This document shows, in pieces, positions 1-19,840 of a stretch of 39,937 bases of DNA. This DNA comes from Actinomycetota bacterium. GTDB lineage: Bacteria; Actinomycetota; Actinomycetes; Mycobacteriales; Mycobacteriaceae. How positions within the stretch are numbered: position 1 is the stretch's first letter; every line of letters starts with the position of its first letter. The stretch is taken from NCBI GenBank assembly GCA_018268465.1, contig JAFDWN010000043.1, forward strand, positions 1 to 39,937. Direction: 5' to 3'. Made by a program: the position numbers and the translations under genes. The notes below the pieces were generated by a model. It saw only the letters and a list, made by a program, of their open reading frames with translations. It made no database searches and was not told the DNA's origin.

Positions 1-212
1 CCGTTACGAAGGTGTTTGCGGGCGACACGCCGCGCGCAGGGCCGAGTTCGCGCACGCTCGCGCGAGATGGGGACCGGGCATCAGCCGCCGGCGACGCGTG
101 ATACCGCCGCGTTACTGTTTGTTACGCACGCGCTAAATCCTCCCCCGGGGCTGGAAATCGGGACTGGACACCTCGGATCATTGCGATGACCAACCTTGGA
201 GGTTTCATCGCG
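1..212. other. Intergenic leader upstream of uraD
   Basis: No credible gene is seen here; the reverse-strand reading frame that enters this stretch is a high-GC shadow of uraD. Positions 51-63 (CGCACGCTCGCGC) match exactly the 13-bp right end of the intergenic repeat found at 1846-1926 and 12784-12896, but the rest of the repeat is not present. A GGAGG box at 198-202 serves the uraD start. Confidence 0.6.
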
Positions 213-757: not shown

Positions 758-1801
758 GTGAACACCCCGACAACTGGCCCCGCTGGCTCAGCGACCCACT
801 CGCACTTCCTGGCACTGCCCGACCTGGCGTCCCGTTCCGCGGGCGCGGCGGTGTTGTGGGCCAACGACGACGTGTTCGCCGAGAAAGAGAACCTCATCAC
901 CCCGGGGCCCGCCGAACACCGTCCGGCCACGTTCGGGCACAAGGGTCAGGTGTACGACGGCTGGGAGACCCGGCGGCGCCGGGGAACGACGCCGGATTCA
1001 CACGACTCGGCGATCGTCCGTCTCGGCGTGCCCTGCATCATTCGCGGAGTCGTGGTCGACACCGCCTGGTTCACCGGGAACTATCCGCCACAGATCTCGG
1101 TCGAAGCGGCGTGCGTAACGGGCTACCCGTCGGTCGAGGAGCTCGTCGACAAGACCGAGTGGACGACGATCGTCGAACGCACCGGTGTCAACGGCGACAC
1201 CCGCAACCCGTTCAAGGTCAGTTCGCCCCGGCGCTGGACCCATGTGCGACTGTCCATCTACCCCGACGGCGGCGTGGCGCGGCTGCGGGTGCACGGTGAG
1301 GGTCTGCTCGATCCGCGGTTCGCCGAGGAGATGACGCTGGACGTCGCCGCTTTGGAGAATGGCGGCCGAATCACCGCATGTTCCAACATGTTCTACAGTT
1401 CGCCGAACAACCTGCTGCTGCCGGGCACGGCGCGCACCATGGGCGAGGGCTGGGAGACCTCCCGTCGTCGCGACGCCGGAAACGACTGGGTGCAGGTGCA
1501 TCTGGCCAGCCAGAGCGTCCTCAACGCCGTCGAACTGGACACGTCGTACTTCGTCGGCAACGCCCCCGGTTCGGCTCGGCTGAGCGGGCGTGACGACGCC
1601 GGCGCATGGCACGAGATACTGCCCGTCACCGAGTTGCGGCCCGATACCCGGCACCGGTTCGTGGTGGCTGGCGACCAGCCGCTCACCGACGCCCGCCTGG
1701 ACATCTATCCCGACGGGGGTATGGCGCGGCTGCGGCTGTTCGGCAAGCTGACCGGCGAGGGTCTGCGGCGTGTTCGCGACAGCTGGGACACCAGCAGCTG
1801 A
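758..1801 (+). CDS. alc: Allantoicase
   Basis: Allantoicase, 347 aa, which hydrolyses allantoate to ureidoglycolate and urea. The protein is built of two similar halves, as expected for the family. The first half contains RLGVPCIIRGVVVDT and LSIYPDGGVARLRVHG; the second repeats this as VHLASQSVLNAVELDT and LDIYPDGGMARLRLFG. The conserved GWETRRRR and GWETSRRR segments precede each repeat. GTG start. It lies 23 bp after uraD on the same strand, making a short purine-ureide operon; an allantoinase would be expected outside the window. Its 3' end faces a convergent MmgE/PrpD gene, with an intergenic repeat between them. Confidence 0.95.
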   Translation: MNTPTTGPAGSATHSHFLALPDLASRSAGAAVLWANDDVFAEKENLITPGPAEHRPATFGHKGQVYDGWETRRRRGTTPDSHDSAIVRLGVPCIIRGVVVDTAWFTGNYPPQISVEAACVTGYPSVEELVDKTEWTTIVERTGVNGDTRNPFKVSSPRRWTHVRLSIYPDGGVARLRVHGEGLLDPRFAEEMTLDVAALENGGRITACSNMFYSSPNNLLLPGTARTMGEGWETSRRRDAGNDWVQVHLASQSVLNAVELDTSYFVGNAPGSARLSGRDDAGAWHEILPVTELRPDTRHRFVVAGDQPLTDARLDIYPDGGMARLRLFGKLTGEGLRRVRDSWDTSS

Positions 1802-1845
1802 TTTCTGCACCTTCGCACTTCTGCCCCCCTTGCGACTGCCCCTGG

Positions 1846-1926
1846 GCGCGAGCGTGCGCAAACTCCTGATGACACACCGCAATCCGGCTGCAGACACGCA
1901 CGCTCGCGCAGAAAGAAAGGGCAGAA
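1846..1926. repeat. Intergenic repeat copy A, inverted ends
   Basis: A hairpin-capable element between two convergent genes. Its ends are a perfect 13-bp inverted repeat: GCGCGAGCGTGCG at 1846-1858 and CGCACGCTCGCGC at 1897-1909, separated by 38 bp. The stretch 1848-1926 is repeated at 12818-12896 with 3 mismatches in 79 bp. On the minus strand it directly abuts the stop codon of the MmgE/PrpD gene. The position fits a REP-like dispersed element that may also end transcription from both sides; that role is inferred. Confidence 0.8.
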
Positions 1927-3312
1927 CTAGCTGCGGGCGCTCTCGCCGAGGTCGGGCACCGTCAACGCTGTCACATCCGCGAAATCGGCCAGATCGGCGA
2001 GGCCCCAACAGATCCGGGCCAGCTCAGCGGTGCGTGACGGCCCCAGCACCGGACCGGCCAGCGCGGCGAACTTCTCCTCTAGGCGATGGTCGGACATCGG
2101 ATTGTCGGGCGTGCCGAGGTTGTGGGCGACACGGCGCTGGAGGGAACGGCCGTCGCGCAGGTTCAGCACCACTCGGGCCGAATCCTTGGCCTCATGAGGA
2201 TCGATGTGGACGGCGATGTTCTCACGCAGCCGGACCACCCCGGGGTCGTTGACACGCTCGTCGGTGAACTGGGCCAACGACACCGTCCCGTCGGCCAGTG
2301 CCACCGCGAGCACGTGGTAGATGCTGAACTTGCCCTGCATGCCGGTCCGCGGTTCGGCCAGTCCCGTCGTCGTCTTCACGTAGTCGTGGACATAGGCATC
2401 CACCGAGACGACGTCGGCCGCCGTGAGACCGTGCTCGGCGCGCAGTTCGAGGACCGCCTGCGCCGGCGGATGCGTCAGCGACCCGCACGCGTACGGCTTG
2501 AACCCGTCACGGGGCAGATACCAGGTCCGGCCGAGGTGTTCGACCGCACGGCGCGGGACGGGCTGGGGCGCGAACAGGTGCAGAAAACCCCGATGGCCTT
2601 CGAGAGGCCGCGGGCTCGACGTGCAGCCGTCGCGGGCCAGGATCCCCGACAACAGCCCGTCCATCGCCGCCTTGCCCGCATGCAGAGGTTTGCCCATCGA
2701 CCCGTAGACGACCTTCATCCCGGCACTCTGGGTGGCACCCGTGCCGAGCGCCGCCAACGTCTGCTCCGCGGTGAGCCCCAGTGCCCGCGAGGTGGCCACG
2801 GCCGCACCGATGTGCCCGACGGTCCCGGTCACATGCCATCCCGCGTCGTAGTGCCCGGGCCCGGCGGCGATCGCCACCCGTGTCTGCACCTCGAAACCGG
2901 CGACGAACGCCTCGATCGCCGTTGCCCCGGTCACGGGTACGAGGGCGGCGACGGCGGCAATGGCGGGCCACAACGGGGCGCTGCCGTGAATCGTGGTGCG
3001 GTCGGGGTTGAAGGTGTCGTCGAAGTCCAGCACGTGCGCAGAGAACCCGTTGGCCAGAGCCGCGAATCCCGCGCCGGCTCGCTGACCCGTGCCGACGATG
3101 GCCGTGGTCCGGGAACCGTCGCCCGGATCGATCGTCGCGATCCCCGCCCGTACCCGCGCGGCCTCGTCGGTGGCCGAACCGGCCAGCGTGCAGCCGAGCC
3201 AGTCGATGAGGCAGCGGATCGACTGGTGGATGACGTCGGATGGGAGATCCTTCAGGCTGACGCGCGCCGCGAATGCCGCCAGCTCAGCGCTGATGCTCTG
3301 CTCGCGGGTCAA
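1927..3312 (-). CDS. MmgE/PrpD family protein (paralog 1)
   Basis: A 461-aa cytoplasmic protein of the MmgE/PrpD superfamily, which includes 2-methylcitrate dehydratase (PrpD) and cis-aconitate decarboxylase. Family blocks are intact: HVLDFDDTFNPDRTTIHG near residue 95, YDAGWHVTGTVGHIG near 150, KPLHAGKAAMDG, FKPYACGSLTHPPAQAV, and GKFSIYHVLAVAL. The start is a TTG at 3312: an ATG eight bases upstream runs into a stop after three codons, while a GGAGA box sits at the right distance from the TTG. It is divergent from paralog 2 across 54 bp that hold a composite inverted repeat. It is closer to paralog 3 than to paralog 2 in the TTIHG and GKAAMDG blocks. The substrate cannot be read from sequence; a tri- or dicarboxylate is likely given the nearby tct transporter. 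Confidence 0.9.
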   Translation of the reverse strand: MTREQSISAELAAFAARVSLKDLPSDVIHQSIRCLIDWLGCTLAGSATDEAARVRAGIATIDPGDGSRTTAIVGTGQRAGAGFAALANGFSAHVLDFDDTFNPDRTTIHGSAPLWPAIAAVAALVPVTGATAIEAFVAGFEVQTRVAIAAGPGHYDAGWHVTGTVGHIGAAVATSRALGLTAEQTLAALGTGATQSAGMKVVYGSMGKPLHAGKAAMDGLLSGILARDGCTSSPRPLEGHRGFLHLFAPQPVPRRAVEHLGRTWYLPRDGFKPYACGSLTHPPAQAVLELRAEHGLTAADVVSVDAYVHDYVKTTTGLAEPRTGMQGKFSIYHVLAVALADGTVSLAQFTDERVNDPGVVRLRENIAVHIDPHEAKDSARVVLNLRDGRSLQRRVAHNLGTPDNPMSDHRLEEKFAALAGPVLGPSRTAELARICWGLADLADFADVTALTVPDLGESARS

Positions 3313-3327
3313 CAGGCCATCTCCAAA

Positions 3328-3364
3328 AGTCTGTAATAAGGAAAGTTATTCTGTTATACAGACT
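3328..3364. promoter_or_regulatory. Composite inverted repeat, divergent MmgE promoter
   Basis: Probable operator for the two divergent MmgE/PrpD genes. Outer arms are perfect 8-bp inverted repeats, AGTCTGTA (3328-3335) and TACAGACT (3357-3364). Inside lie two more symmetric pieces: AATAA/TTATT (3335-3339, 3346-3350) and TCTGT-TAT-ACAGA (3350-3362). On the minus strand it reads AGTCTG-N5-CAGAA-N4-TTTCC-N7-AGACT. The same pattern with identical first spacings occurs at 12671-12710. The AT-rich core also offers -10-like sequences, so a bound protein would block both promoters. The regulator is unknown; the IclR protein at 10229 is one candidate. Confidence 0.65.
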
Positions 3365-3366
3365 CT

Positions 3367-4770
3367 ATGACGTCTGCAGTGGAGAACTCGGAAATCTACG
3401 ACGATCGCACCTCCACGGAGACGCGGGCACTGGTCGACTTCGTCCGGCACACCCGGCCCGCCGAGCTCCCCGCCGCCGTTCTGCACGAAAGTGCCCGCTG
3501 CCTGCTCGACCACCTCGGTCTGGCCATCGCCGGTGCGGCCGAGCCGGCCGCCCGGATCGCCCGCGAACAAGCCCTGATGCTCGGCGGCGAACCCCAGGCC
3601 CTCGCGGTGGGCACCGCCGACCGGCTGCGGATCACCGATGCCGCGCTCGTCAATGGAATTGCCTGCCATGCACTGGATTTCGATGACACGCACCTGCCCA
3701 CCATCTTGCATCCGACGACTCCGCTGTACGCTGCCGGTACCGCGCTGGCGGAGTTCCGCGGATCGCGGGGCGTCGACCTGCTCGCCGCCCACGCGCTCGG
3801 CTACGAGCTGGCCGCGAGAGTCAGCAACGCGCTGTACCCCGAGCACTACGACGTGGGTTGGCATATGACGGGCACCACCGGCGCGCTGGCGGCGGCGACG
3901 GTTGCGATCCGGCTTCTCGAACTCGGCGCGCTGCCCGCGATGCACTGCCTGAGCATCGCGGCCACCCAGAGTTCGGGACATCGCGAACAGTTCGGCACCA
4001 TGACCAAGCCATTCCACGCGGGCCACGCCGCCCAGGCCGGAGTGTGGGCCGGACTGCTCGCGGCCGGGGGTTTCACCGGTGCGCCCGATCCGCTGCAGGG
4101 TCGGCGCGGCATGTTCACCGTGATGTCGACGGTCAGCACGCCCGCCGAGCTGGTCGACGGGCTGGGGTCGATATGGCAGATATTCGACAACGGCGTCAAA
4201 CCGTATGCGTGCGGCGTGGTGATCCACCCCGCGATCGACGCGGTTCGCGATCTTGCCGCACGAAAGGGGCTGTCTGTCCATCAGATTCAATCGATCCGGC
4301 TGCGTGTGCATCCGCTCGTGCTCGAGCTCACCGGAAAGACCGATCCCAGAACAGGTCTGGAGGGCAAATTCTCGGTGACCTTCGCCAGCTCGGTCGGTCT
4401 GTTGCGGGGCCGGGCCGGCGAGGCCGAGTTCTCCGATGCGCTGGTGGTCGATCCCGACGTCCGGGCGCTGATGGCGCGTATCGACGTGGTGGCCGACGCC
4501 GACGTCCCGCACACCCAGGCAGGCGCCACCGCGGTGACCGAGGACGGCACGGTGGTGGACACCTGGGTCGACGATGCGCGGGGCACACCGGGCAATCGGC
4601 TCTCCGACGACGAATTGCGGGACAAGTTCTTCGCCCTCACCGACGAGGTGATCGGTCACGACCAGGCTGAGCGGCTCGCCGACGCCACCTTCGCGGTGGG
4701 CTCGGCCGGTGGGATCGGGCCCGTCCTCGAGCTGACCATCCCCATCAGGAGCACCGTTCCGGGCCGGTGA
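3367..4770 (+). CDS. MmgE/PrpD family protein (paralog 2)
   Basis: A 467-aa MmgE/PrpD superfamily protein. The blocks are HALDFDDTHLPTILHP (about residue 98), YDVGWHMTGTTGALAAA (about 160), TKPFHAGHAAQAG, VKPYACGVVIHPAIDAV and GKFSVTFASS. The DDTHLPTILHP form resembles the Asp-Thr-His site of family members acting on aconitate-like acids, whereas paralogs 1 and 3 carry a TT(I/V)HG form, so paralog 2 probably acts on a different compound or step. ATG start at 3367, only 2 bp after the inverted repeat. Its 3' end overlaps that of the convergent SDR gene by 26 bp. Confidence 0.9.
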   Translation: MTSAVENSEIYDDRTSTETRALVDFVRHTRPAELPAAVLHESARCLLDHLGLAIAGAAEPAARIAREQALMLGGEPQALAVGTADRLRITDAALVNGIACHALDFDDTHLPTILHPTTPLYAAGTALAEFRGSRGVDLLAAHALGYELAARVSNALYPEHYDVGWHMTGTTGALAAATVAIRLLELGALPAMHCLSIAATQSSGHREQFGTMTKPFHAGHAAQAGVWAGLLAAGGFTGAPDPLQGRRGMFTVMSTVSTPAELVDGLGSIWQIFDNGVKPYACGVVIHPAIDAVRDLAARKGLSVHQIQSIRLRVHPLVLELTGKTDPRTGLEGKFSVTFASSVGLLRGRAGEAEFSDALVVDPDVRALMARIDVVADADVPHTQAGATAVTEDGTVVDTWVDDARGTPGNRLSDDELRDKFFALTDEVIGHDQAERLADATFAVGSAGGIGPVLELTIPIRSTVPGR

Positions 4771-5446
4771 CGATCCGGGATCCGTCGCAATCCACCCGCA
4801 CCACCGTTCCGCTCAGCCCGGACGGCTCGACCGCCAACAGGGCCACCTGCTCGGCGATCTCCCGCCGGCATCGGTCGAGATCCTCTCCGGCACAATCGAC
4901 TCCCGGCGACACCGCGTTGACCGCGACGCCGTCCGCGCGCAGGGACTCGGCCAGCGCCCTCGTAAGTCCGAGCAAGCCGTACTTCGCCGATGACACATGG
5001 ACCCGCCGCGGGTCACCCTCGAGTGCGTTGCGCCCCAGTATGTTGACCACCCGCCCACCGGGCACCAGGGTCGCCAGCGCGCGACGGATGCACAGATACG
5101 CGCCATCGAGGGTGACGGCGTGCACCGTTCGCCACTCCTCGGCCGTGATATCCGGAAACGGTGTGTGCGGTCGGTAGGACGCGTTGTTCACCAAAACCCG
5201 CACCCGGCCATGGCGTTCAATCGCCTCGAACATGCTTTGCACGGCCGCGGCGTCGGTGACGTCGGCACAGACGGGGAACGCCGATCCGCCCTCGGCACGG
5301 ATGCCGGTCACCACAGACTCGGCCTGCAGCCGCCGGCTCCTCGTGTTCACCGCTACCGTCAGACCCGACCGGGCGAGCCGCACGGCGATTGCTGCGCCCA
5401 GTCCGCTGCCCGCGCCGGTGACCAGCGCGATCGCACACTCGGGCAT
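4745..5446 (-). CDS. SDR-family protein lacking catalytic Ser and Tyr
   Basis: A 233-aa short-chain dehydrogenase/reductase-fold protein. The dinucleotide site is intact (LVTGAGSGLGAAIAVRLA near the N terminus; VNNASY near residue 87; VNAVSPG near 180). Aligned on the FabG pattern, the catalytic Ser is Gly (NILGRN) and the catalytic Tyr is Val (HVSSAK), with only the Lys kept at the right spacing. It may therefore bind NAD(P)H without standard alcohol/ketone chemistry, or belong to an SDR subgroup with this HVxxAK form. It is the last gene of the tctB-tctA-tctC-mmgE operon, 8 bp after the MmgE/PrpD paralog 3 stop, and overlaps the convergent paralog 2 by 26 bp. Confidence 0.85.
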   Translation of the reverse strand: MPECAIALVTGAGSGLGAAIAVRLARSGLTVAVNTRSRRLQAESVVTGIRAEGGSAFPVCADVTDAAAVQSMFEAIERHGRVRVLVNNASYRPHTPFPDITAEEWRTVHAVTLDGAYLCIRRALATLVPGGRVVNILGRNALEGDPRRVHVSSAKYGLLGLTRALAESLRADGVAVNAVSPGVDCAGEDLDRCRREIAEQVALLAVEPSGLSGTVVRVDCDGSRIVTGPERCS

Positions 5447-5454
5447 GGTGGCTG

Positions 5455-6831
5455 TCAGGTGCCCACCCCACCCGTAGCACCCGAGGGGACCGTCTGGGCG
5501 AGAAGTGTTGACACATCGTCTGACTCGTCGATTCGCCAGCAGCTGCTGAGCAGTCCCTCCGTCCGCTCGGGGCCGAGGATCGGCCCGACCAGTTCCCGGA
5601 ACTTCGCGCTGAGATCGTCGTCGCTCAACGGCGCTGCCGGTGTGCCGCGGTTCCCCCGCACCTCGGTGCCGACGGTCCGACCGCTGCTCAGCACCAGCTC
5701 GATGTCCGCATCCTGCTTACCCAGTGCCGGGTCCGCCACCACTTTGACGCGGTCTCGGAGGTCTACGATGTCGTGCCGGGTGATGACGTCCTGTCCCAGC
5801 TCGTCGGTGCCGACCCTGCGAAACGAGATCGCCGCCGCGGCACAGTGCCGCAGGCTGAACTTGGCCTGCATAGGTGTCACCGGGCGGGGCAGATCGGTGA
5901 ATCGCGCGGCGGGCTGCGAAACCCGGATGTCGACGATGCTGACATCGGCGGGCCGGATGTCCTCGGCAGTCACCAACGCGATCACACCGTCGATCATGGG
6001 GTGTGTCAGCGATCCACTCGGATAGAGTTTGTGGCCGTTGGACGTGAGGTTCCAGGTGTCCCCCAGGCCGGCAGTGATCCGGTGCGGATCCGGGTCTGCG
6101 CTCATCACCGCCAAGTAACCGAAACTGCCTTCTAGTGCCGATTCGCTTGCCGTCAGACGCTGTTCGACGAGAGCGGCGGCCAGCACACCGTCCATCGCAG
6201 CTTTACCCGGGTGCAGGCTCTTGAGGTCGCTGCCCGCCATGATCCGCAAACCGGCTGCCTGCGTGGCACCGGCCGCGATCGCGTGCTCGACCTGCTCGGC
6301 TCCGAGTCCCATGGCGCGGGCCGCCGCCGCAGCGGCGCCGACGTGCCCGGACGTGCCCGTGACGTGCCATCCGGCTTCGTAGTGGCTTTGGCCTGCCGCA
6401 TGCGCGACCCGCGTTTCGACCTCGAATCCCAGCGCGAATATCGTCAGCGCGGCCTTGCCGCCGATGCGATGGGTATCGGCCACCGCGAGGATGGCCGGCC
6501 ACACCGAACAACTGCCGTGCACCGTCGTGCCGGGCGGGTTGTAGACGTCGTCGAGGTCGAGCACATGAGAGGAGAAGGCATTGAGGAACGCCGCAAACGG
6601 AGCCGTGAAGCGCGCGCTGCTACCGACAACCCTTGCACCACTGTCACTTTCTGCTGCCGCGAGCGCAATGCGGGCGCGGCGGGTGGCGTTGTCGGCCGAC
6701 CCGGCCACCGCCACACCGATGTGATCCACCAGGGCGCGCCGGGCGGCGTGCACTACCGGTTCAGGGATCCGTTCGTCGTCACATTCGGCGACGAAGCGGG
6801 CCAGCTCCGCGGTCGCAGACGCCTCTGTCAC
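5455..6831 (-). CDS. MmgE/PrpD family protein (paralog 3)
   Basis: A 458-aa MmgE/PrpD superfamily protein. Blocks: HVLDLDDVYNPPGTTVHG (about residue 90), YEAGWHVTGTSGHVG (about 150), KSLHPGKAAMDG, HKLYPSGSLTHPMIDGV and AKFSLRHCAAAAI. The usual DFDDT is altered to DLDDV, and KPYACG to KLYPSG, so the active-site pocket is somewhat changed compared with paralogs 1 and 2. GTG start; its first bases overlap the tctC stop in a GTGA junction (6828-6831), which argues for translational coupling with the transporter binding protein. This tight link is the best evidence that the MmgE/PrpD enzymes act on what the TTT system imports. Confidence 0.9.
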   Translation of the reverse strand: MTEASATAELARFVAECDDERIPEPVVHAARRALVDHIGVAVAGSADNATRRARIALAAAESDSGARVVGSSARFTAPFAAFLNAFSSHVLDLDDVYNPPGTTVHGSCSVWPAILAVADTHRIGGKAALTIFALGFEVETRVAHAAGQSHYEAGWHVTGTSGHVGAAAAAARAMGLGAEQVEHAIAAGATQAAGLRIMAGSDLKSLHPGKAAMDGVLAAALVEQRLTASESALEGSFGYLAVMSADPDPHRITAGLGDTWNLTSNGHKLYPSGSLTHPMIDGVIALVTAEDIRPADVSIVDIRVSQPAARFTDLPRPVTPMQAKFSLRHCAAAAISFRRVGTDELGQDVITRHDIVDLRDRVKVVADPALGKQDADIELVLSSGRTVGTEVRGNRGTPAAPLSDDDLSAKFRELVGPILGPERTEGLLSSCWRIDESDDVSTLLAQTVPSGATGGVGT

Positions 6832-14160: not shown

Positions 14161-14589
14161 TCAGGACGCCCGGGCCTGCCGGCGCACCGCGAGCCGGCTC
14201 AGCACGAGCTGCCCCAGGGCGTGCACATCCTGGCGCGGCGACGCCGGGATCAACGTCACCCCGTCGGCGACCTCGGCCGACCCGATGTCGGCGATCAGCC
14301 CCGCCAAACCGTCCACGGTCCCCACGTAGTGCACCGACGCATCCGAATCGGACGTTCCGAGCACGAGCCGTGCCGAACGGAAGTCGCGTGCCACGGCGAC
14401 GGTGACGTCGAGGACCACCGCCACGTCGCCGTCGTCTGCCTTGACCCGAGCCCGGACCCGCTGGGCGTGCTGCAGATCGCTGGCAGCCACCCGCACCGCC
14501 GGTCCGGTGCCGTCGGTCAGTTCCGTCCACTCCGCGTCGGCCGCGGGCGCCACGTAGATCCGCAGCCCGTGCCGTTCCTCATCGACCAC
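14161..14589 (-). CDS. Conserved hypothetical protein
   Basis: A 142-aa acidic soluble protein that I cannot assign. The last third, VHYVGTVDGLAGLIADIGSAEVADGVTLIP followed by DVHALGQLVLSRL, resembles the C-terminal end of F420/FMN luciferase-like monooxygenases, where a GxxxxVA...GVDGV.L.P strand closes the barrel. The first two thirds do not look like that family, so this may be a remnant or a small stand-alone relative. Start is GTG at 14589. It lies 31 bp after terC and 60 bp before lhgO and is probably co-transcribed with terC, hence under the manganese riboswitch if read-through occurs. Confidence 0.7.
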   Translation of the reverse strand: MVDEERHGLRIYVAPAADAEWTELTDGTGPAVRVAASDLQHAQRVRARVKADDGDVAVVLDVTVAVARDFRSARLVLGTSDSDASVHYVGTVDGLAGLIADIGSAEVADGVTLIPASPRQDVHALGQLVLSRLAVRRQARAS

Positions 14590-14620: not shown

Positions 14621-15619
14621 TCAGTGGTTGCGCTCAGCGGGAGCCGAATCCGGCGACCGCCCCGACATCCGGGTCTTGATCAGGCTGGCGATCATCGTGA
14701 TGAACAACGTCAGGATGATCACGCCCAGGCTCCACAGCGTGGGGATCTCGGGGACGTGTACACCCTCACCGCCGTTGATGAACGGAAGCTCGTTCTCGTG
14801 CAGCGCGTGCAGGATCAGCTTGACGCCGATGAAGAACAGGATGAACGCCAGGCCCTGCGACAGGTACACCAGCCGGTCCAGCAGATCACCGAGCAGGAAG
14901 TACAGCTGCCGCAGCCCCATCAGGGCGAACACGTTGGCGGTGAACACCAGGTAGGGCTCGCGGGTCAGGCCGTAGATCGCCGGAATCGAGTCCAGCGCGA
15001 ACAGCAGGTCCGTGGTCCCCAGCGCGACGATGACCAGGAACATCGGCGTCATCAGCCGCTTGCCGTTCTCCTTGATCCACAACCGCAGACCGTCCCACTG
15101 ATCGGTGAACTGCAGATGCGTCCGCGCGAACTTCACCAGCTTGTTCTCGGCGTCGTCGTCATGGTCGGTATCGCGCACCAACTTGGCGGCGGTGTACACC
15201 AGGAACGCCCCGAAGATGTAGAAGATCCACGAGAAGTTCTCGATCGCGACCGCGCCGAGGGCGATGAAGATGCCGCGGAAGACCAGGGCCAGGATGATGC
15301 CCACCAGCAGCGCCTGCTGCTGGTACATCTTCGGCACCTTGAAGCTGGCCATGATGATGATGAAGATGAACAGGTTGTCGATCGACAGGCTGTACTCCGT
15401 CAGCCATCCCGCGAAGAACTCCAGCCCGTACTGGCGGTCGTGGAAATTCCACACCCAGATACCGAAGGCGATGGCCAGCCCGACATAGATCGACAGATAG
15501 ATCGCGCATTCACGCATCGACGGTTCGTGCGGCCGGCGGCCGATCACGATCACGTCGAACAACAGAACGGCGATCGTCACGCCGAGCGTTATGCCCCACT
15601 CCAGTGCGGACACGTTCAT
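14621..15619 (-). CDS. terC: TerC-family membrane protein (probable Mn exporter)
   Basis: TerC/Alx-family integral membrane protein, 332 aa, with about nine hydrophobic segments. The two family metal-site motifs are present: LTEYSLSIDNLFIFIII near residue 70 and VALGTTDLLFALDSIPAI near 195, each with an acidic residue inside a helix. Relatives export Mn(II) or help load exported proteins with metal. ATG at 15619 with a strong GGAGG box 10 nt upstream. The box is exactly complementary to a strand of a yybP-ykoY riboswitch (feature at 15630-15760), so translation should rise with Mn(II). This genetic control is the main evidence for the manganese role. Confidence 0.93.
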   Translation of the reverse strand: MNVSALEWGITLGVTIAVLLFDVIVIGRRPHEPSMRECAIYLSIYVGLAIAFGIWVWNFHDRQYGLEFFAGWLTEYSLSIDNLFIFIIIMASFKVPKMYQQQALLVGIILALVFRGIFIALGAVAIENFSWIFYIFGAFLVYTAAKLVRDTDHDDDAENKLVKFARTHLQFTDQWDGLRLWIKENGKRLMTPMFLVIVALGTTDLLFALDSIPAIYGLTREPYLVFTANVFALMGLRQLYFLLGDLLDRLVYLSQGLAFILFFIGVKLILHALHENELPFINGGEGVHVPEIPTLWSLGVIILTLFITMIASLIKTRMSGRSPDSAPAERNH

Positions 15620-15629
15620 CTACAGAATT

Positions 15630-15760
15630 CCTCCGGTCGCCAAAAAACGCCGGAGGTCTCTTCCGTCGGTACGCACAGCGCACCGGCCCGCAGCACCGAT
15701 CGTCCGATGGGCGGCCGACGTGGTGACGACACTGCGGCGAAGGAATACTCCCCTCCAGCC
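15630..15760 (-). promoter_or_regulatory. yybP-ykoY manganese riboswitch with SD-sequestering platform
   Basis: On the minus strand the hallmark blocks of this Mn(II)-sensing RNA appear in order: GGAGGGGAGTA (15756-15746), GTCGTCACCACG (15730-15719) and AGACCTCC (15659-15652). The closing helix P1 pairs GCTGGAGG (15759-15752) with CCTCCGGC (15656-15649). The same CCTCCGG strand is perfectly complementary to CCGGAGG (15636-15630), the ribosome-binding region of terC, across a 13-nt loop that holds a run of six T. The two helices exclude each other: bound Mn should keep P1 and free the ribosome site (translation on). Mechanism is inferred from pairing. Confidence 0.9.
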
Positions 15761-15895
15761 GTCAAGTGTGCCCGACCGGCGCCCCGTTGGAAAATCGAAG
15801 GGCCCAGACACCGCCGCGCAGGTGGCAGCACCGCCGCAGCCCAATTGTGATCACCCACCCCGCGCAGCACCGGCCCCCGCCGGCGGCGGCTTCAG

Positions 15896-15901
15896 TATTT
15901 T
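15896..15901 (+). promoter_or_regulatory. -10 box of NRPS operon, leaderless
   Basis: TATTTT (TANNNT form) is followed by 6 nt and the GTG start at 15908. No ribosome-binding site is visible, so the mRNA probably begins at the start codon. Confidence 0.5.
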
Positions 15902-15907
15902 GTTCTG

Positions 15908-18900
15908 GTGACAAGCTCGGTCGCTGGACCAGAGATACCCGCTCAGTACGTGCTCTCGCCGTTCGCGCCGGAGCCGCGGACGCTCGTGGACATCCTGCAC
16001 GACACGGCCAGGCGTTACCCGGACGCGGCGGCACTTGACGACGGTACGGTCCAGCTCACCTACGCCGAGCTGATCGCCGACATCGAGGAGAGCGTCGCCT
16101 GGCTGGCCGCTCGCGGCATCGGCCGCGGCGACCGGATCGGCATCCGGATGCCCTCGGGCAGCTACGCGCTGTACGTGGCGATCCTCTCGGCGCTCGCCGC
16201 CGGCGCGGCGTACGTGCCGGTGGACGCCGACGACCCCGAGGAACGCGCCCAACTGGTGTTCGGCGAGGCACAGGTGGTCGGGGTGATCACCGAACAGGGG
16301 CTGGTCCGCGGGCCGGGATCGTCGCGCGGCTGGCGCGCGGCGCCCCCGCTCAACCGTGACGACGCGTGGATCATCTTCACCTCCGGCTCCACCGGCACCC
16401 CCAAAGGGGTGGCCGTGACGCACCGCAACGCCGCGGCCTTCGTCGACGCCGAGGCACAGATGTTCCTGCAGGACAGTCCCCTCGGACCCGGTGACCGGGT
16501 GCTGGCCGGGCTGTCGGTGGCGTTCGACGCGTCTTGCGAGGAGATGTGGCTGGCCTGGCGCCACGGCGCCTGCCTGGTGCCGGCACCGCGCTCGCTGGTG
16601 CGCAGCGGGATGGACCTCGGTCCGTGGCTGGTGTCGCGGGACATCACGGTGGTGTCGACGGTGCCGACCCTGGCGGCGCTGTGGCCTGCCGAAGCTCTGG
16701 AGGCGGTGCGGCTGCTGATCTTCGGCGGTGAGGCCTGCCCGCCGGAGCTGGCCGAACGCCTCGCCGCGGGACCCGATTCGGCGGGCCGCGAGGTCTGGAA
16801 CACCTACGGCCCCACCGAGGCCACCGTGGTGGCGTGTCTGGCCAAACTCGACGGTAAGAGCCCCGTCAGCATCGGGTTGCCGTTGCCGGGGTGGGACCTG
16901 GCCGTCGTGGACAAGGCCGGCGAACCCGTCCCCATCGGCGAGACCGGCGAACTCGTCATCGGCGGGGTCGGGCTCGCCCGCTATCTCGATCCGGAGAAGG
17001 ACGAGGAGAAGTACGCGGCGATGCCGACACTGGCCTGGTCGCGCGCCTACCGCAGCGGTGATCTCGTGCGGCTGGAAAACGACGGCCTCTACTTCGTCGG
17101 CCGCGCCGACGACCAGGTCAAGGTGGGCGGGCGCCGCATCGAACTCGGCGAGGTGGACTCGGCGCTGGTGAACCTGCCCGGGGTGAGCGGCGGGGCGGCC
17201 GCCGTCCGCCGCACGGCGAGCGGCACCCCGCTGCTGGTCGGCTACATCGCCAGCGCCGACCCGGAGTTCGACCTCGCCCAGGCACGCCTGGCCCTGGCCC
17301 AGGCCCTGCCCGCCGCGCTGGTGCCGCGGCTGGTGCTCGTCTCCGAACTGCCGACCCGCACCTCGGGCAAGGTGGACCGGGCGGCGCTGCCCTGGCCCCC
17401 GCCCGGTGAGGACGCCGGCGACGACTCCCCCGACCTGGGCGGCACGATGGGCTGGCTGGCCGGTTTGTGGCGCGACGTCCTCGCCGCCCCGATCGACGGT
17501 CCGGAGGCCGACTTCTTCGCGCTGGGCGGCGGTTCGCTGTCGGCGGCGCAGCTCGTCGCCGCGCTGCGCCAACGCTATCCGCAGGTCACCGTCGCCGACC
17601 TCTACGACCATCCGCGGCTCGGGTCGCTCGCGGGGTATCTCGACGAACTGGCGCCGCCGCCGAAGGTGATCACCCGCGTGGTCACACCGACGTCGCGGCT
17701 CACCCAGGTGGTGCAGGTGGCGCTGTCGCTGCCGCTGGCCACCCTGACCGGTGTGCAGTGGGTGGTGTGGCTGGCGCTGCTCAACAACCTCGCGGCGGCC
17801 TGGAACCTGGTGCCCTGGGCGGCGCCGCTGGGCTGGTGGTGGATCGTCGCCGGGTTCGTGCTGTTCATCTCCCCACTGGGCCGGATGGGCATCGCGGTAC
17901 TCAGCGCCCGCATGCTGCTGTCCGGGCTGGAGCCGGGCACCTACCGCCGCGGCGGCCCCGAACATCTACGGGTGTGGTTCGCCGAACGCCTCGCCGAGGC
18001 CAGCGGCGCGGAGAACCTCGCGGGCGCGCCGTGGATGGTGTACTACGCCCGGGCGCTGGGCAACACCGTCGGCAAGGGCGTCGACCTGCACTCGGCACCC
18101 CCGGTCACGGGGATGCTCAAACTCGGTCACCGCTGTTCGATCGAGCCGGAGGTCGACCTCTCCGGGCACTGGATCGACGGCGACCTGTTCCACGTCGGGC
18201 GGATCGCCGTCGGCAACGACGCCACCATCGGCGCGCGCACCACGCTGCTGCCCGGGGCCGTGATCGGCAAGGACGCCGACGTCGCACCCGGGTCGGCGGT
18301 GGTCGGCAAGGTGAAGAACGGGCAGTATTGGAAGGGTTCGCCGGCGGTGAAGTCCGGCAAGGCCCGCCACCCGTGGCCGGATCACCGGCCGCCGCGGGCC
18401 CCGGTGTGGGTCCCCGTGTACGGGATCACCTCGGTGTTGCTGGGAGCGGTGCCGCTGACGGCCCTGGCGGCGGGACTCGCCGTGATCGGGTGGGCGGTGC
18501 GCGGTACCGCCTCACCGCTCGCCGCGATCCTGCCCGCGCTGCTGTGGACCCCGGTGGCGACCCTGGTGGCGCTGCTGGTCTACGCGGCGATAACCGTCGT
18601 CGGGGTGCGGCTGCTGTCGCTGCGGCTGCGGGAGGGCTACCACCCGGTGCGCAGCCGCGTGGGGTGGCAGCTCTGGGCGACCGAACGGCTGATGGACGCT
18701 GCCCGCAACTACCTCTTCCCGCTGTATGCGAGCCTGCTGACGCCCTGGTGGCTGCGGATCCTCGGCGCCAAGGTCGGGCGCGGCACCGAGATCTCCACGG
18801 CGCTGTTCACCCCGAAGTTCACCGTCGTGCAGGACAGCGCGTTCCTGGCCGACGACACCATGGTGGCCTCCTACGAGCTCGGCGGCGGCTGGATCCATGT

Positions 18901-19840
18901 GGCCAAGGCGACGATCGGCAAACGTGCGTTCCTGGGCAACTCCGGTATCACCCAGCCCGGCCGCAAAGTGCCCGACGACGGCCTCGTCGCGGTGCTGTCC
19001 GCCACCCCGCACAAGGCCAAGGCCGGATCGTCGTGGCTGGGCAGCCCGCCGGTGCGGCTGCGCCGCCAACCCACGGCGGCCGACGCGCTGCGCACCTTCC
19101 ATCCGCCGATACGGTTGAAGGTGATGCGCGCCGCGGTGGAGACCTGCCGGCTTGTCCCGGTGGTCGTGACGTTCGCGATCGGGGTGTCGGTGCTCGGCGC
19201 GTTGCAGGCGCTGGCCGTGCGGTTCGGCTACGGGTGGGCGTCGCTGGCCAGCGGTGCGGTGCTGCTGATCACCGGGGCGGTGGCGGGCGCCATCGCGGTC
19301 ATCGCCAAATGGCTCATGGTGGGCCGGATCCGCGCCGTGGAGCATCCGTTGTGGTCACCGTTCGTCTGGCGCAACGAGGTGTCCGACACATTCGTCGAGA
19401 CGGTGGCCGCGCCGTGGTTCGCCAGGGCGGCCAGCGGCACCCCGGTGATGAACCTGTGGCTGCGGGCGCTGGGCGCCTCGATCGGGCGCGGGGTGTGGTG
19501 CGAAACGTACTGGCTGCCCGAGGCGGATCTGGTCACGCTGGGCAGGGGCGCGACGGTGAACCGCGGCTGCGTGGTACAGACCCACCTGTTCCACGACCGC
19601 ATCATGCGGTTGGACACCGTTGTGTTGGAGGAGGGTTCGACGCTGGGCACGCACTGTGTCGCGCTGCCCGCGGCGCGCCTGGGGGCGGGGGCGACGGTCG
19701 GGCCCGGCTCCCTGGTGATGCGCGGAGACGAGGTTCCCCCGTCCACCCGCTGGCAGGGTAACCCGATCGCGCTGTGGAATACGTTCCGCAGCAAGCGGTC
19801 CGACGACTCCGCCGAGGGCAAGGAGGAATCCGCGGCGTGA
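15908..19840 (+). CDS. Pls/PosA-type membrane-anchored NRPS
   Basis: A 1310-aa single-module non-ribosomal peptide synthetase of the Pls/PosA type, whose studied members make homopolymers or short chains of a basic amino acid. Adenylation domain, about residues 30-495: IIFTSGSTGTPKGVAVTH (155-172), YGPTEAT (about 300), YRSGDL (about 381), GRADDQVKVGGRRIELGE (about 397) and TSGKVDRAALP (about 484). Carrier domain: FFALGGGSLS with the phosphopantetheine Ser at 543. No condensation or thioesterase domain follows. Instead there are three membrane-plus-hexapeptide units: helices near 600-640, 835-900 and 1085-1130, with left-handed beta-helix repeats near 745-815, 960-1010 and 1190-1280. GTG start and a -10 box 6 nt upstream suggest leaderless mRNA. 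First gene of a five-gene operon; overlaps the peptidase gene by 4 bp. The amino acid used is not readable by eye. Confidence 0.93.
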   Translation: MTSSVAGPEIPAQYVLSPFAPEPRTLVDILHDTARRYPDAAALDDGTVQLTYAELIADIEESVAWLAARGIGRGDRIGIRMPSGSYALYVAILSALAAGAAYVPVDADDPEERAQLVFGEAQVVGVITEQGLVRGPGSSRGWRAAPPLNRDDAWIIFTSGSTGTPKGVAVTHRNAAAFVDAEAQMFLQDSPLGPGDRVLAGLSVAFDASCEEMWLAWRHGACLVPAPRSLVRSGMDLGPWLVSRDITVVSTVPTLAALWPAEALEAVRLLIFGGEACPPELAERLAAGPDSAGREVWNTYGPTEATVVACLAKLDGKSPVSIGLPLPGWDLAVVDKAGEPVPIGETGELVIGGVGLARYLDPEKDEEKYAAMPTLAWSRAYRSGDLVRLENDGLYFVGRADDQVKVGGRRIELGEVDSALVNLPGVSGGAAAVRRTASGTPLLVGYIASADPEFDLAQARLALAQALPAALVPRLVLVSELPTRTSGKVDRAALPWPPPGEDAGDDSPDLGGTMGWLAGLWRDVLAAPIDGPEADFFALGGGSLSAAQLVAALRQRYPQVTVADLYDHPRLGSLAGYLDELAPPPKVITRVVTPTSRLTQVVQVALSLPLATLTGVQWVVWLALLNNLAAAWNLVPWAAPLGWWWIVAGFVLFISPLGRMGIAVLSARMLLSGLEPGTYRRGGPEHLRVWFAERLAEASGAENLAGAPWMVYYARALGNTVGKGVDLHSAPPVTGMLKLGHRCSIEPEVDLSGHWIDGDLFHVGRIAVGNDATIGARTTLLPGAVIGKDADVAPGSAVVGKVKNGQYWKGSPAVKSGKARHPWPDHRPPRAPVWVPVYGITSVLLGAVPLTALAAGLAVIGWAVRGTASPLAAILPALLWTPVATLVALLVYAAITVVGVRLLSLRLREGYHPVRSRVGWQLWATERLMDAARNYLFPLYASLLTPWWLRILGAKVGRGTEISTALFTPKFTVVQDSAFLADDTMVASYELGGGWIHVAKATIGKRAFLGNSGITQPGRKVPDDGLVAVLSATPHKAKAGSSWLGSPPVRLRRQPTAADALRTFHPPIRLKVMRAAVETCRLVPVVVTFAIGVSVLGALQALAVRFGYGWASLASGAVLLITGAVAGAIAVIAKWLMVGRIRAVEHPLWSPFVWRNEVSDTFVETVAAPWFARAASGTPVMNLWLRALGASIGRGVWCETYWLPEADLVTLGRGATVNRGCVVQTHLFHDRIMRLDTVVLEEGSTLGTHCVALPAARLGAGATVGPGSLVMRGDEVPPSTRWQGNPIALWNTFRSKRSDDSAEGKEESAA

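Follow-up and report, generated by a model that had tools for sequence, protein, structure and literature searches.

A predicted Mn(II)-sensing yybP-ykoY riboswitch in the leader of a mycobacterial terC gene

The DNA considered here, referred to as the window, is a stretch of 39,937 nucleotides (nt) from an Actinomycetota bacterium of the Mycobacteriaceae (GCA_018268465.1, contig JAFDWN010000043.1, positions 1-39,937). Its terC gene encodes an Alx-type TerC, as judged from a match to TIGR03718 (R_switched_Alx) of 376 bits, above the curated cut-off of 246.4; this identity supports terC as the target gene proposed by an earlier note on the window. The closest named relatives of the protein are from Mycolicibacterium and Mycobacterium species, with M. 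palauense the best at 86% (records very near the window were possibly excluded). The leader of terC (minus strand, 15759-15649) sits between terC and a divergent gene at 15908-19840 on the plus strand and, judging by its sequence, very probably senses manganese, uncovering or masking the ribosome-binding site.

Table 1. Features of the terC leader and of its surroundings; leader position 1 is window position 15759, and helix names follow the crystal-structure papers by an alignment made here.
Feature	Position	Strand	Remarks
terC	14621..15619	-	332 amino acids (aa), TerC/Alx family metal homeostasis membrane protein; PF03741, 2.3e-50
Mn(II) riboswitch aptamer (predicted), three-way-junction form with P1, P3 and P4	15649..15759	-	Scores of models R1 and R2 (see text) and covariation
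P1.1 5' strand GCUGGAGG	15752..15759	-	Leader 1-8, pairs with 104-111
L1 5' side GGAGUA	15746..15751	-	Leader 9-14; same letters in 26/26 leaders
P1.2 5' strand UUCC	15742..15745	-	Leader 15-18/96-99; partner GGAA at 15664-15661
4-nt linker UUCG	15738..15741	-	Leader 19-22; site of the P2 arm in four-way-junction members
P3.1 5' strand CCGCAG	15732..15737	-	Leader 23-28/67-72; partner CUGCGG at 15693-15688
L3 core UCGUCA	15724..15729	-	L3 is about leader 31-41 with 61-66; invariant in 26/26 leaders
P3.2 hairpin	15700..15718	-	Leader 42-48/54-60
P4 hairpin, variable	15667..15685	-	Leader 75-93; present when the nascent leader is folded without constraints
L1 3' side GAGA	15657..15660	-	Leader 100-103
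Switching strand CCUCCGG	15650..15656	-	Leader 104-110; common to P1.1 and the hairpin that sequesters the Shine-Dalgarno (SD) region
Six-T run	15642..15647	-	Loop of the sequestering hairpin, between its two arms
CCGGAGG, SD region of terC	15630..15636	-	Leader 124-130; 10 nt 5' of the ATG at 15619
-10-like hexamer CACACT	15765..15770	-	Predicted start about 15758 (+/-2), near the first base of the aptamer
AMP-binding/PP-binding/hexapeptide-repeat gene	15908-19840	+	Divergent from terC
Small 142-aa protein	14161-14589	-	Directly 3' of terC; no Pfam match

The elements that the earlier note had read in this leader are all present. Three blocks of the yybP-ykoY class stand in order on the minus strand between 15759 and 15649 (GGGGAGUA at 15753-15746, UCGUCA at 15729-15724, and GAGACC at 15660-15655), and a closing helix forms between GCUGGAGG (15759-15752) and CCUCCGGC (15656-15649) with 8/8 pairs, one of them U-G. 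The strand CCUCCGG (15656-15650) pairs equally well (7/7) with CCGGAGG (15636-15630) in the ribosome-binding region of terC, so that this switching strand is fully complementary to both of its partners, the P1.1 5' strand and the SD. By the alignment used here, the A at 15749 corresponds to A10, which is extruded in the crystal structures and whose role in L1 has been described (part of PMC6754395), and the A at 15724, the last letter of UCA (15726-15724), is the predicted Mn-contacting adenosine; its counterparts in the L3 of L. lactis and X. oryzae, again the A of UCA, are A41 and A48 (in the same part of PMC6754395).

TerC relatives were sought in 61 genomes (the bacterium's own and 60 relatives); 53 of them had a match, and the search yielded 30 loci. 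At 26 of these the blocks are located 117-200 nt upstream of the terC match: at 22 of the 24 loci from the same genus (own included) and, directly upstream, at 4 of the 6 from the same order. Within the genus, the two loci that lack them, L023 and L024, hold more distant TerC copies of 64 and 63% identity; the same-order exceptions (L026 and L028) have matches of only 27.9 and 30.1 bits to R1, a covariance model trained on 26 actinobacterial terC leaders (109 positions, 24 pairs), some 1.1 kb further upstream, where they immediately precede the second terC of the tandem in those genomes. The L1 and L3 cores are invariant across the 26 leaders, each of which has GGGGAGUA together with GAGACC or AAGACC within the closing helix P1. 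The letters that we take to be the consensus of the L1 core agree with L031, a canonical member of the Rfam model RF00080, and with the leader of E. coli alx.

The paired regions of the aptamer vary in a concerted manner. In a MAFFT alignment of the 26 leaders, both sides have changed in 13 of the 25 aptamer pairs, giving 46 double-changed cells against 14.8 (standard deviation 2.9) after shuffling; control structures slid by 1-3 columns yield just 3-7 double-changed pairs. In P1.1, both sides of the pair at leader 4/108 have changed in 6/26 leaders (the pair is open in 7/26); in P1.2, 97.1% of cells are paired and one pair goes from UA to CG in 3/26 leaders; in P3.1, 99.4% are paired, with changes on both sides in 4/6 pairs; and in P3.2, 85.5% are paired, with such changes in 6/7 pairs, the window itself having one G-A mismatch. 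Covariation of P1.2, P3.1 and P3.2 thus describes a multi-way junction, three-way here as opposed to the four-way junction of the crystal structures, in which docking of L1 against L3 is predicted. A second alignment, which was fitted to the model, has 448 double-changed cells against 130.9 after shuffling, and the window leader folds with a z score of -2.69 relative to its shuffles, 2 of 200 of which fold equally well. Because the blocks recur upstream of terC and the pairs change on both sides, the pattern is beyond chance.

Further leaders were examined in a set of 100 non-training loci, all of which are R1 matches by construction and none of which belongs to the 26 training leaders; L151, L085-L097 (several of which repeat included loci) and the training and own-genome loci were left out, and 60 loci were chosen manually, in most cases a single one per genus, among the R1 class matches listed. 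In this set the L3 string is CGUCA in 94 leaders, CGACA in 5 and CAUCA in 1, and the 3' side of L1 is GAGA in 96 and AAGA in 4. The linker measures 3-9 nt in 100/100 (4 nt in 77), a survey that favours members lacking P2 because R1 was itself built from P2-less leaders.

Homology to accepted members of the class was established through E. coli alx, which, like mntP, is named as a member of the yybP-ykoY family (in the part of PMC9603457 consulted). R1, whose training set held no proteobacterial member, finds the alx leader with 40.9 bits (E value 6e-8; L070 1874-2001) just upstream of the coding sequence (from 2081); on the window, which belongs to its training set, it scores 109.6 bits at 15650-15759. 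A second covariance model, R2, was built from 100 further R1 matches; it gives 89.3 bits to the window, on which it was not trained (the highest-scoring unrelated match there has 23.7), 47.9 to alx and 37.7 to L031. Together with the covariation, this cross-detection upholds the class assignment of the earlier note.

RF00080 itself (Rfam 15, gathering score 45 bits) behaves very differently. In E. coli (NC_000913.3) it scores mntP (L069 462-558) at 41.6 bits, under its cut-off, and has no match at E<=10 in the alx leader (L070 1874-2001); L031, which was found by RF00080, receives 49.1 bits. Among 17 loci of relatives its one match is sub-threshold (15.4 bits in L022), and among the R1-derived loci L037, L038 and L042-L052 there is again one (17.4 bits in L042). 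Larger surveys, run with stricter search filters, compared the two models. At E<=0.001, R1 matches 31 of 198 genomes of the phylum (at least 3 of them training genomes) and 208 of 394 sampled genomes of the class Actinomycetes (at least 5 of them training genomes); RF00080 has matches in 6 of the 198, one above the cut-off and none in a genome on the R1 list, and in 6 of the 394, none above the cut-off. Four of the latter six (G254, G341, G464, and G506) also carry an R1 match, which in G341, G464 and G506 lies at a different place. Since RF00080 misses alx and under-scores mntP, its silence is not diagnostic; its use as a yes/no test was rejected, and the family model looks too narrow. With 0/394 genomes above the cut-off against 208/394 for R1, most of the regulon will escape annotation based on RF00080. 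An unrelated candidate, the Rfam P13 sRNA, came up in a scan of 15450-15950 at E<=10 with 22.8 bits (gathering score 70) and was dismissed as a chance match.

The two pairings of the switching strand are mutually exclusive, as the earlier note had proposed, and covariation supports both, that with the SD being visible across families. Four of the 100 non-training leaders were dropped from this test, their start codon being unresolved within 130 nt. In 68 of the remaining 96, switching strand and SD are 7/7 complementary (G-U allowed), against 46.6 (standard deviation 2.4) when permuted; run lengths add up to 624 against 566.5 (5.8), a sum reached by 0/1000 permutations, and for the 39 leaders with a differing strand it is 239 against 207.8 (5.2), reached by 0/2000, all of these permutations making no correction for relatedness. 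The association of strand and SD has a Fisher p of 3.8e-8 (77/96 leaders scorable). The SD follows the strand through several changes: CCUUGUG is accompanied by CACAAGG (L111, L142, L146, and L148), CUUGUGG by CCACAAG (L145), CCUCCAG by CUGGAGG (L083 and L128), CCUCCGA by UCGGAGG (L113 and L150), and CCUUCGG by CCGAAGG (L045, L054, L058, L116, L127, and L144). Leaders that do not fit include L078, L080 and L082, where the gapless run is only 4 long; in close relatives that share their strand, pairing takes place through a bulge. In the 26-leader set, the tail folds into the SD hairpin in 24 leaders (the tail of L022 was cut at the wrong GAGACC).

Folding energies are consistent with a competition between the two states. 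The nascent RNA, leader 1-111, adopts the aptamer fold unaided, P1.1 being closed (-51.4 kcal/mol). For the full leader up to the ATG and without ligand, the sequestered state (-65.1 kcal/mol) is favoured by 8.2 kcal/mol over the fold in which the aptamer is enforced (-56.9 kcal/mol). Once transcribed, the SD is therefore predicted to displace P1.1 in the ligand-free RNA, so that Mn(II) would have to supply the difference or act in time.

Transcription probably starts close to the aptamer. A simple sigma-70 scan found no promoter, and a hexamer of the form [CG]A[CG]A[AC]T begins 8-12 nt 5' of P1 in 22/22 leaders of the genus, against a background of 3 in 4290 positions, the motif having been chosen after seeing the same 22 leaders. 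In Corynebacterium glutamicum, the leader of terC (cg2157) has an RNA-seq start at 2,043,151, 6 nt inside the RF00080 prediction then current; two other RF00080 predictions in that genome were unobserved in RNA-seq (Table 2 of PMC3890552, for both). A start downstream of 15750, which the earlier note had raised as a way for the aptamer to go untranscribed, is argued against by the -10-like motif, the start predicted from it and the C. glutamicum start, without the question being settled.

The reading preferred here, to which a probability of roughly 0.86 is given, is that the terC leader is a Mn(II)-sensing yybP-ykoY riboswitch of three-way-junction form that acts on translation and turns it ON. 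Transcription would begin at about the first base of P1.1, and the aptamer would be the first part to fold. Mn(II), which we infer to be the ligand, would then dock L1 against L3 and keep P1.1 closed; with CCUCCGG held by GCUGGAGG, the SD would be free and TerC would be made, whereas without Mn(II) CCGGAGG would take CCUCCGG and the SD would be hidden. The ON direction is supported by analogy with the published mechanism of E. coli mntP, in whose leader the ribosome-binding site is inaccessible without Mn and is freed by it (per the part of PMC11647493 consulted).

Several results weigh against this reading. RF00080 has no match at its gathering score in the window or anywhere in the own genome, nor does it have one at E<=10 in the 501-nt stretch 15450-15950, so that the covariance-model check proposed in the earlier note, which had itself counted such an outcome as a refutation, came out negative, with a model whose insensitivity is seen in its failure at alx; the gathering score is not treated here as defining membership. 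E. coli mntP is found by neither R1 nor R2, and homology to accepted members was accordingly reached by way of alx and not of mntP. The SD helix shows no covariation within the 26-leader set, which is mostly of one genus; because the helix barely varies within the genus it cannot covary there, and the uninformative within-genus test was therefore replaced by the cross-family one, so that the evidence for SD covariation comes from other families. The best tail fold is a partial SD hairpin in L016 and no such hairpin in L021, and complementarity to the SD is weak, in runs of 4-5, in L049, L053, L068, L138 and others. Finally, in the aptamer-enforced fold of the window leader the SD is mostly paired with the U run (unpaired probability 0.02-0.18), in a helix that is worth, by difference, roughly 4 kcal/mol in this leader.

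The silence of RF00080 is also what speaks for a motif that arose by chance and has no function, a reading so at odds with conservation and covariation over many families that almost no weight is left to it. A hairpin whose signal is pH or temperature, with Mn(II) not the chief cue, is improbable as well: the Mn-contacting core does not vary, the target genes are mostly of metal-transport families, and an aptamer would be superfluous in a simple thermometer. Somewhat more plausible, if still unlikely, is that the same Mn(II) aptamer controls mainly transcription, through Rho-dependent or pausing-linked termination, with masking of the SD as a secondary effect. Rho also acts on the E. coli mntP leader (in the part of PMC11647493 consulted), and the loop's run of six T could make RNA polymerase slow down. 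The earlier note had suggested that this run might add a transcriptional effect; as an intrinsic terminator it was ruled out, since the T6 lies in a loop and the leader has no listed terminator-like site, the single listed site falling inside terC. The second arm of the hairpin is, moreover, the SD region, which covaries with the switching strand, and termination alone would not require such covariation.

The genes that follow the aptamer in relatives are in keeping with a role in manganese homeostasis. Of the 100 non-training R1 matches, 84 have a TerC and 6 have a P-type cation ATPase within the 1.45 kb downstream, and 10 have neither of the two; two of the remaining ten (L060 and L153) precede GDT1, and L083 precedes a P-type ATPase of about 1500 aa, which occupies the same place in L238. 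A TerC, P-type ATPase or GDT1 thus lies downstream in 93/100, as does an Alx-type TerC in the window. Of the other seven, L111 has a GreA/GreB-like protein downstream, L142 a PGPGW membrane protein and L058 an M50 peptidase with a CBS domain; at L130, L137 and L138 the open reading frame (ORF) has no identified family (L137 was not submitted to Pfam), and L042 lies at the end of a contig. In a smaller set, of 30 loci, an ORF lies downstream at 29, and it is a TerC in at least 19 of these, a lower bound because some ORF starts are in the wrong frame.

Some of these targets would widen the regulon. In L238 (G476:C19), from a genome of the same genus, an aptamer at 5524-5622 (minus strand; R2, 92.0 bits) precedes an ORF at 980-5497 (minus strand) for a P-type cation ATPase of some 1500 aa, whose long N-terminal part has no Pfam match; the protein resembles the mycobacterial CtpI. 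In L111, an R1 match at 1429-1536 (minus strand) with a fully complementary SD stands before the GreA/GreB-like ORF at 909-1445 (minus strand), an unusual target for a Mn(II) riboswitch. The genes downstream of the R1 matches at 101-199 (plus strand) in L142 and 1501-1590 (plus strand) in L058 are possible further members.

The kind of element, its architecture and its mechanism are already known; what is new is this member, the wide actinobacterial set missed by RF00080, and the SD covariation. Members in Corynebacterium and Streptomyces have been published (PMC8164766, PMC4046766, and PMC3890552, each as far as consulted), and a 2013 survey of yybP-ykoY motifs, found in more than 75% of taxonomic groups, included nine Mycobacteriaceae genomes, so that mycobacterial members may already be among those surveyed (per the part of PMC3766115 consulted). 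A literature search limited to open-licence full texts found, among the papers listed, none on a mycobacterial terC riboswitch. The closest counterpart is E. coli alx, which has GGGGAGUA, UCGUCA, CCGG and GAGACC in the same order, lacks a P2 arm (by our reading of L070), is found by both R1 and R2 and controls a protein of the same TerC/Alx family, the Mn exporter Alx; it differs in a longer P4 insert and in an SD that lies about 70 nt past the P1 3' strand, with a 4-nt match by eye. E. coli mntP shares the translational ON switch and differs in having a P2 hairpin (by our reading of L069) and a target of another family, besides being missed by both models. The mgtA riboswitch of S. pneumoniae is likewise a three-way-junction yybP-ykoY element, placed before a Mn/Ca P-type ATPase, but is described as acting on transcription (review PMC9495176, in the part consulted). 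The C. glutamicum cg2157 leader is another actinobacterial terC leader, given 49.1 bits by an older Rfam version of RF00080 and having an observed 5'-UTR start at the beginning of that prediction (PMC3890552).

The divergent AMP-binding gene is present in 15 of 21 same-genus relatives (L002-L022), and a homologue of the 142-aa protein adjoins terC in 9 of the 21. The earlier note had suggested that lhgO, an L-2-hydroxyglutarate oxidase by profile match (544 bits), may share the control; co-transcription could possibly bring this about, but conservation gives no support, lhgO standing beside terC in 0/29 other loci within the 1.5 kb of flank fetched. The own genome has a second TerC, 50% identical to that of the window (G000:C28:276-1208), with no aptamer in the 2.5 kb scanned, including 1.3 kb upstream; just one of its two terC copies therefore seems to be Mn-switched. 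Nor does the genome hold a second copy of the aptamer, the next-best R1 match having 24.2 bits (E value 0.07) and an alignment (L038) without GGGGAGUA. In L029, a sub-threshold match to the c-di-GMP-I-GGC riboswitch (52.5 bits, gathering score 59) was seen at 784-858 on the minus strand, about 0.5 kb upstream of the terC aptamer.

On balance, though by a narrow preference, Actinomycetes would carry a widespread three-way-junction Mn(II) subtype of their own, invisible to Rfam, in which the P1 3' strand would serve as an anti-SD that co-evolves with the ribosome site, so that aptamer and ribosome would compete for one 7-nt strand; this subtype would govern TerC, GDT1 and P-type ATPases, including the large mycobacterial one, in about half of the class. 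The finding explains the likely regulation of a mycobacterial terC and indicates that the current public RNA model overlooks a Mn(II) riboswitch in actinobacteria, and the covariation of SD and switching strand makes this a cleanly testable translational switch.
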